From NCBI RefSeq assembly GCF_009911265.1, contig NZ_QXXA01000009.1, forward strand, positions 62,001 to 126,000: a stretch of 64,000 nt of DNA, given 5' to 3'. The notes under the pieces were generated by a model. The model did no database searches, was not told the origin of the DNA, and saw only the letters and a program-made list of their open reading frames with translations. Shown one piece after another: positions 31,256 through 33,002 of this stretch. Within the stretch, counting starts at the first letter, position 1. Every line of letters begins with the position of its first letter. The position numbers were made by a program, and so were the translations under genes. Source of the stretch: Senegalia massiliensis (GTDB lineage Bacteria; Bacillota; Clostridia; Tissierellales; SIT17).

Positions 31256-31497
31256 ATAATAAAAAAAACCCTATCCCTATAGACAAGGGACGAGAGTTTG
31301 AAGTTCCCGTGGTGCCACCCAAATTGGTATATAACCCACTTATAATCTTTAACGCAGATATACGAATAATTCTACTAAAATTCAAATTATTTACTCTGAG
31401 GTGTCTTCATAAGTTATCAATGCTAATTTTCACCAACCATTAGCTCTCTAGAAATGATAAAACTAACTACTCTGCCTCTTCACCGTATGTTTATATT
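31256..31497 (-). promoter_or_regulatory. T-box leader controlling hisS-aspS
   Basis: Leader of about 240 nt. The T-box core GGGTGGCACCACGG lies at 31320-31307, upstream of a terminator with an 8-T run. Stem I has the AG-rich 5' bulge (GAGGCAGAGTAG) and the distal GGTTGGTG. The specifier side reads ATGAA-GAC-A, closed by the GAGG/CCTC stem, so the main specifier codon is GAC (Asp) at 31405-31403. It overlaps CAC (His) at 31403-31401. Uncharged tRNA-Asp, and possibly tRNA-His, should promote readthrough. Confidence 0.9.
31261..31291 (-). terminator. T-box terminator ahead of hisS
   Basis: TCCC and CCCT segments pair with AGGGA/AGGG and are followed by eight T residues on the minus strand (31268-31261). 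Alternative to the T-box antiterminator. Confidence 0.75.
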
Positions 31498-31503
31498 GTA
31501 ATT

Positions 31504-31532
31504 ATTATAAATTATTATTCTTCTTCTGTCAA
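31504..31532 (-). promoter_or_regulatory. Consensus promoter of hisS-aspS
   Basis: Perfect TTGACA (31532-31527), 17 bp, perfect TATAAT (31509-31504) on the minus strand. The -35 is inside the last codons of hemZ. Start of the T-box RNA predicted near 31497. Confidence 0.85.
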
Positions 31533-33002
31533 CATTTTATTTACAGCTGATACTTTTCTTTCTATCATATCATCTATTCTATTTATATAATCATTTAAGT
31601 TTACTACATTAGGTACTCGAATTATTTTATTTGAACTTGGATAAAACACCTTAGATACAGCTCCAGCACCTAATCCAATAATAGTTTGTTTTTCTTCCAT
31701 CATAGAAATATTGTATATACACTCTTTATATTTTTTTGCATATCCCACATTTTCAAAATTACCTAATATTTGTTTTTGTCTATACATATAATAAGGCTTC
31801 ATATTCATTTCCTTTGAATATACAACTGTTTCATTTAACATATCAGATAGACTTCCTTCTTTTATAATATCATATTCATCTAAATCTTTATTTAACTTTG
31901 AAGACTTCTTTATAGTTAGAGTATGAACAGTTAAGTTATCTGGATCTAACTCTTTTATTATTTCCATAGTATTTTTGATATCATTTAAATTTTCTCCAGG
32001 TAATCCTATGATTACATCCATGTTTATAGAATTAAACTTCATACTTTTTGCTAATTTAAATATTTCTTTAATATCAGCTTTAGTATGATGTCTATTCATT
32101 AGTTTTAAAGTTTTATTATTCATTGTCTGTGGATTTATACTAATTCTATCTATTTTATTTTCCTTTAACATTTCTAAAACTTTCTTATTTATAGTATCTA
32201 CTCTACCAGCTTCTACTGTAAATTCTATTATATTTTGAATGTCAAAGTATTCATATACAGCTTTAATTATTTTTTCTAAATTTTCTAAAGGTATAGAAGT
32301 AGGTGTTCCTCCTCCAATATAAATAGTTCGTAATGTCTTATCTTTCATAAATAAGGCCAGTTGTTTTATTTCTTTAATTAATGAATTAGTATAATCCTCA
32401 ATTAGTGAATTCCATTTTCTTATTGAATAAGAAGGAAAAGAACAATATATACATCTACTAGGACAAAATGGTATACTTATATATAAACTGTAATCTTTTT
32501 TATTTAAAGGGTATAAATATTTTTCTTGTATATCTGTAATTTTTAAAAGAAGATTTACTTTTTTTATATCTATTAAATATTCTCTTGTTAGAATATTTAA
32601 TATTTCATTTTTATCTACATTTTTCTCCTTTAAATCATGTACAATCTTTGAAGGTCTTATTCCTGTTAATATACCCCATGATGTATTCATATCTTTAATA
32701 TTCATAACAGCTTTATAAACACACTTTTTTATTGCTATATTAATCTTTTTATCAAATGGTTTTTTAATATTTATTTTATCTATACTTTTTATATTATTTT
32801 TGCTAATTAACTTTTTATCTAAATAAATATTAACATTTACTGAATTGCTTTTAACTGTAATAATTATCAAATAGCCTTCAATATATAAATCCATATTATC
32901 TATAAAATTTATATTACTTGTTTCCATAATAACCTTTACTAATTCGTAGATATCATGTTTTTTATTATAATTCTTTAAATAAATATTTACCATTTTTTTC
33001 AC
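31515..33002 (-). CDS. hemZ: HemZ-type radical-SAM coproporphyrinogen dehydrogenase-like protein
   Basis: 495 residues of the HemN/HemW/HemZ radical-SAM group. The cluster motif CPSRCIYCSF follows YISIPF; then YIGGGTPTS, and INPQTMNNKTLKLMNRHHT. The extended N-terminal domain of about 165 residues is the HemZ feature. The HemZ name implies oxygen-independent coproporphyrinogen oxidation, but in anaerobes without other haem genes the activity is unproven. The GTG start overlaps the stop of the MBL gene; ATG three codons later is an alternative. Confidence 0.82.
   Translation of the reverse strand: MKKMVNIYLKNYNKKHDIYELVKVIMETSNINFIDNMDLYIEGYLIIITVKSNSVNVNIYLDKKLISKNNIKSIDKINIKKPFDKKINIAIKKCVYKAVMNIKDMNTSWGILTGIRPSKIVHDLKEKNVDKNEILNILTREYLIDIKKVNLLLKITDIQEKYLYPLNKKDYSLYISIPFCPSRCIYCSFPSYSIRKWNSLIEDYTNSLIKEIKQLALFMKDKTLRTIYIGGGTPTSIPLENLEKIIKAVYEYFDIQNIIEFTVEAGRVDTINKKVLEMLKENKIDRISINPQTMNNKTLKLMNRHHTKADIKEIFKLAKSMKFNSINMDVIIGLPGENLNDIKNTMEIIKELDPDNLTVHTLTIKKSSKLNKDLDEYDIIKEGSLSDMLNETVVYSKEMNMKPYYMYRQKQILGNFENVGYAKKYKECIYNISMMEEKQTIIGLGAGAVSKVFYPSSNKIIRVPNVVNLNDYINRIDDMIERKVSAVNKMLTEEE

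Follow-up and report, generated by a model that had tools for sequence, protein, structure and literature searches.

In the window, a 64,000-nucleotide stretch of the Senegalia massiliensis genome, the leader of the hisS–aspS operon is very probably a canonical T-box that works by transcription termination and has one specifier, the Asp codon GAC, beside which the overlapping His codon (CAC) does not serve as a second. The overlap itself is real but expected, was published earlier for other bacteria, and may provide at most a weak second input.

The locus reads on the minus strand from promoter to T-box, terminator, hisS, and aspS. A pattern scan located a TTGACA-17-TATAAT sigma-70 promoter (31532–31504), a consensus match only, which agrees at 12 of 12 positions; its −35 box overlaps the 3′ end of a gene (31515–33002, minus strand) that ends just upstream of the leader and, judged from its sequence, resembles a HemZ-type radical-SAM coproporphyrinogen dehydrogenase. 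The covariance model RF00230 matches the leader at full length (31492–31283; model positions 1–219) with 146.8 bits (E = 6.7e-33), above the gathering cut-off of 93 bits. Within Stem I, the cmscan alignment opposes the 5′ arm of the specifier-loop closing stem, GAGG (31478–31475), to its 3′ arm, CCUC (31401–31398), in the segment AUGAA-GAC-A-CCUC-AGAG, with GAC (31405–31403) at the specifier position in the standard register and CAC (31403–31401) in the +2 register. The antiterminator region, GGGUGGCACC...GUCCC (31320–31287, from the sequence and the RF00230 alignment), contains the bulge UGGC (31317–31314), a UGGN motif complementary to G73 of tRNA-Asp(GUC). Ahead of hisS lies an intrinsic terminator (31288–31261, from the sequence and the pattern scan), consisting of a stem (31288–31269) and a run of eight U. 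The two genes, named from their sequences and from matches in homologue searches, encode a histidyl-tRNA synthetase of 421 residues (hisS, 31231–29966) and an aspartyl-tRNA synthetase of 595 residues (aspS, 29961–28174), the latter fitting the GAC specifier. The initial annotation had described the GACAC overlap, the T-box architecture, GAC as the expected specifier, and a HisRS–AspRS operon, all of which hold exactly. The T-box itself is beyond chance; the GAC/CAC overlap mostly is not.

By analogy with the T-box family, the anticodon GUC of uncharged tRNA-Asp would pair with GAC in the specifier loop, and the G73-CCA end of the same tRNA would pair with UGGC of the antiterminator bulge. The terminator would then fail to form, and both hisS and aspS would be transcribed.

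The initial annotation also proposed that one leader might sense two tRNAs by a register shift. In the form assessed here, register 0 presents GAC to tRNA-Asp, and opening of the first stem pair lets tRNA-His read CAC two bases on, so that a single leader reports on both synthetases. The operon carries exactly HisRS and AspRS, and each overlapping codon fits one product. Both the GACAC overlap before hisS–aspS and the idea of dual sensing are already published. GACAC in the specifier loop is characteristic of hisS–aspS T-boxes (PMC5313534), and these T-boxes have been proposed to sense both tRNAs (PMC4342826). Gutierrez-Preciado et al. (2009) is cited both for the suggestion that GACAC mainly interacts with aspartyl-tRNA (PMC5313534) and for a pair of alternative structures through which both tRNAs would be sensed (PMC4342826). 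The hisS–aspS T-box of MRSA has been called a histidine T-box (PMC7927825). With the hisS–aspS T-boxes of bacilli and lactobacilli (Gutierrez-Preciado et al. 2009, via PMC5313534 and PMC4342826), the window leader shares the operon, GACAC, and a single T-box, and we found no substantive difference beyond its host, a clostridium whose genus is that of Anaeromonas. Overlapping-codon double reading is reported for Clostridium acetobutylicum (PMC4052509), whose transamidation-operon T-box likewise has overlapping specifier-loop codons and genes linked to both amino acids; there, both tRNAs (Asn and Glu) were shown to bind (Saad et al. 2013, via PMC4052509 and PMC7778990). Unlike that T-box, the window leader has a second codon that reaches into the stem and whose tRNA has the wrong discriminator base. 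The His-specific T-box of lactic acid bacteria also precedes hisS, but there CAC is the specifier (PMC5313534), whereas the window leader has GAC.

Conservation among relatives speaks for the Asp codon. HisS homologue searches yielded 54 different leaders of hisS in which a T-box core is present; in every case aspS follows hisS within the fetched stretch, and in most the two genes are directly adjacent. Four leaders (L082, L088, L102, and L105) were excluded as not safely readable, leaving 50, including four whose specifiers were set by eye (L068, L107, L120, and L138). In the standard register, GAC is kept in 45 of the 50, which supports the Asp reading; CAC occurs in three (L142, L143, and L155) and AAC in two (L113 and L117). 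The two bases that follow GAC are AC in 32 leaders, AU in eight, GC in two, AG in two, and GU in one, such that the +2 register holds a His codon, CAC or CAU (CAY), in 40 of 45, a point in favor of dual sensing. Against it, the other five, among them A. gelatinilytica and C. algeriensis, lose the shifted His codon and retain GAC. The initial annotation had named a second codon not conserved in homologous leaders as a result that would speak against its proposal, and one such case falls within the genus of the window: Anaeromonas gelatinilytica has GACGCC, with GAC and the operon retained. Lineages with a His specifier place CAC elsewhere than the shifted register. In L142, L143 (Sporosalibacterium), and L155, CAC occupies the normal register in place of GAC, with the hisS–aspS operon intact and, in two of the three, a UGGA bulge. 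Judging from these sequences, a switch to His sensing appears to use the standard specifier position and not the +2 register.

The AAC (Asn) specifier precedes hisS–aspS in the standard register in Christensenella intestinihominis (L113) and in L117, and no asnS above the family cut-off was found in either genome. An Asn T-box on this operon would make sense if the AspRS of these genomes also charges tRNA-Asn. Caldicoprobacter (L070) likewise is without asnS, yet it keeps GAC.

The overlap has a high background rate in unrelated T-boxes with C-ending specifiers. The Rfam consensus 3′ of the specifier is aCC, a purine (usually A) followed by a C, the first base of the closing stem's 3′ arm, and because this consensus comes next, specifiers of the form NNC, for any amino acid, tend to produce a +2 codon CAC or CAU. 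Control specifiers were read from T-boxes of the source genome, its relatives, and other Clostridia, and from tyrS and asnS leaders; five tyrS specifiers were set by eye, and 14 other calls, unreliable or unreadable, were removed manually ahead of the count. Leaving Asp and His leaders aside, 90 of 139 NNC leaders (65%) carry a His codon in the +2 register: Asn 29/29, Ile 16/17, Arg CGC 3/3, Tyr 18/32, Phe 6/13, Ser 7/13, Leu 5/15, and Pro 3/12. The leaders of the source genome itself include Ile AUCACC, Phe UUCACU, and Cys UGCACC. That Asn, Ile, and Arg leaders unrelated to His show the same overlap argues against dual sensing. The rate in GAC hisS–aspS leaders (40/45, 89%) exceeds that of the pooled controls (p = 0.002) but is not above that of Asn or Ile and not significantly above Asn plus Tyr (p = 0.13), p-values that serve only as a guide, as the leaders are related to one another and specifier types differ widely. 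From these comparisons, the overlapping CAC appears to be mainly a side effect of the T-box consensus.

The structural position of the second codon also weighs against its use. In the window leader, the final C of CAC (position +5) is paired with a G of the 5′ arm, placing the last base of the codon in the closing stem, so that only GAC lies wholly in the unpaired loop. In the consensus Stem I, the energy needed to open this pair is 3.4 kcal/mol, rising to 6.3 kcal/mol for two pairs. In the alignment of relatives, read by eye, a C at +5 usually faces a G of the 5′ arm and a U faces an A, a pattern that fits a paired position. Three Christensenellales-like leaders (L118, L124, and L130) differ, in that their +5 C seems unpaired and the whole GACAC apparently lies in the loop. 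Related gut-type leaders vary at +5, with GACAG in L120 and L127, GACAU in L131 and L138, and GACAC in the three just named, and in some of these seven the stem begins one base later. When the whole leader was folded by minimum energy, the T-box structure did not emerge (z = 0.42), which makes that fold uninformative on the registers. Ensemble energies of Stem I under constraint differ little between the registers (−15.5 vs −14.9 kcal/mol); only the consensus-structure energy separates them.

The antiterminator bulge points to tRNA-Asp as well. In the source genome, tRNA-Asp(GUC) has G73 and tRNA-His(GUG) has C73, and relatives in which both tRNAs were found show the same discriminators. The window UGGC is complementary to G73-CCA of tRNA-Asp and mismatched to C73 of tRNA-His. 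The discriminator rule holds in this genome, where UGGA in the Cys and Thr leaders goes with U73 in the corresponding tRNAs. Among the 45 GAC leaders, the bulge is UGGC in 31, UGGU in 13 (a wobble with G73), and UGGA in one. We rejected UGGC alone as an exclusion of His, since TBDB drops the discriminator criterion for His T-boxes, where the discriminator base of the tRNA can be internally paired (PMC7778990). In the family of L142 and L143, L149 (genome G013) combines GACACC with UGGA, which fits neither its tRNA-Asp (G73) nor its tRNA-His (C73); it is the single case in which a His reading in the +2 register would merit testing.

Taken together, sensing of tRNA-His through a shifted register, as first annotated, is unlikely: the overlap follows the consensus, the last base of CAC sits in the stem, and the bulge matches the discriminator of tRNA-Asp. 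Some observations do count against a single Asp specifier, namely the CAY excess, the apparently unpaired GACAC of the three Christensenellales-like leaders, and the unreliability of the discriminator match for His T-boxes. A weak secondary response to tRNA-His through the +2 CAC, once the first stem pair opens, could accompany a main response to tRNA-Asp and would explain the retention of GACAY before hisS–aspS; we regard this, too, as improbable. A His-only sensor, with CAC as the actual specifier and GAC incidental, is scarcely credible, even with hisS as the first gene of the operon and some relatives having a His specifier, as these have it in the standard register, the specifier position here is held by GAC, UGGC fits tRNA-Asp but mismatches C73 of tRNA-His, and GAC is kept where relatives lose CAC.

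If real, dual sensing would give a second example from nature of a T-box that reads two tRNAs, with the register slipping into the stem. The single-Asp reading that we prefer carries a caution for the T-box family: overlapping codons at C-ending specifiers follow from the consensus and should be weighed against a background rate before being taken for dual sensors.
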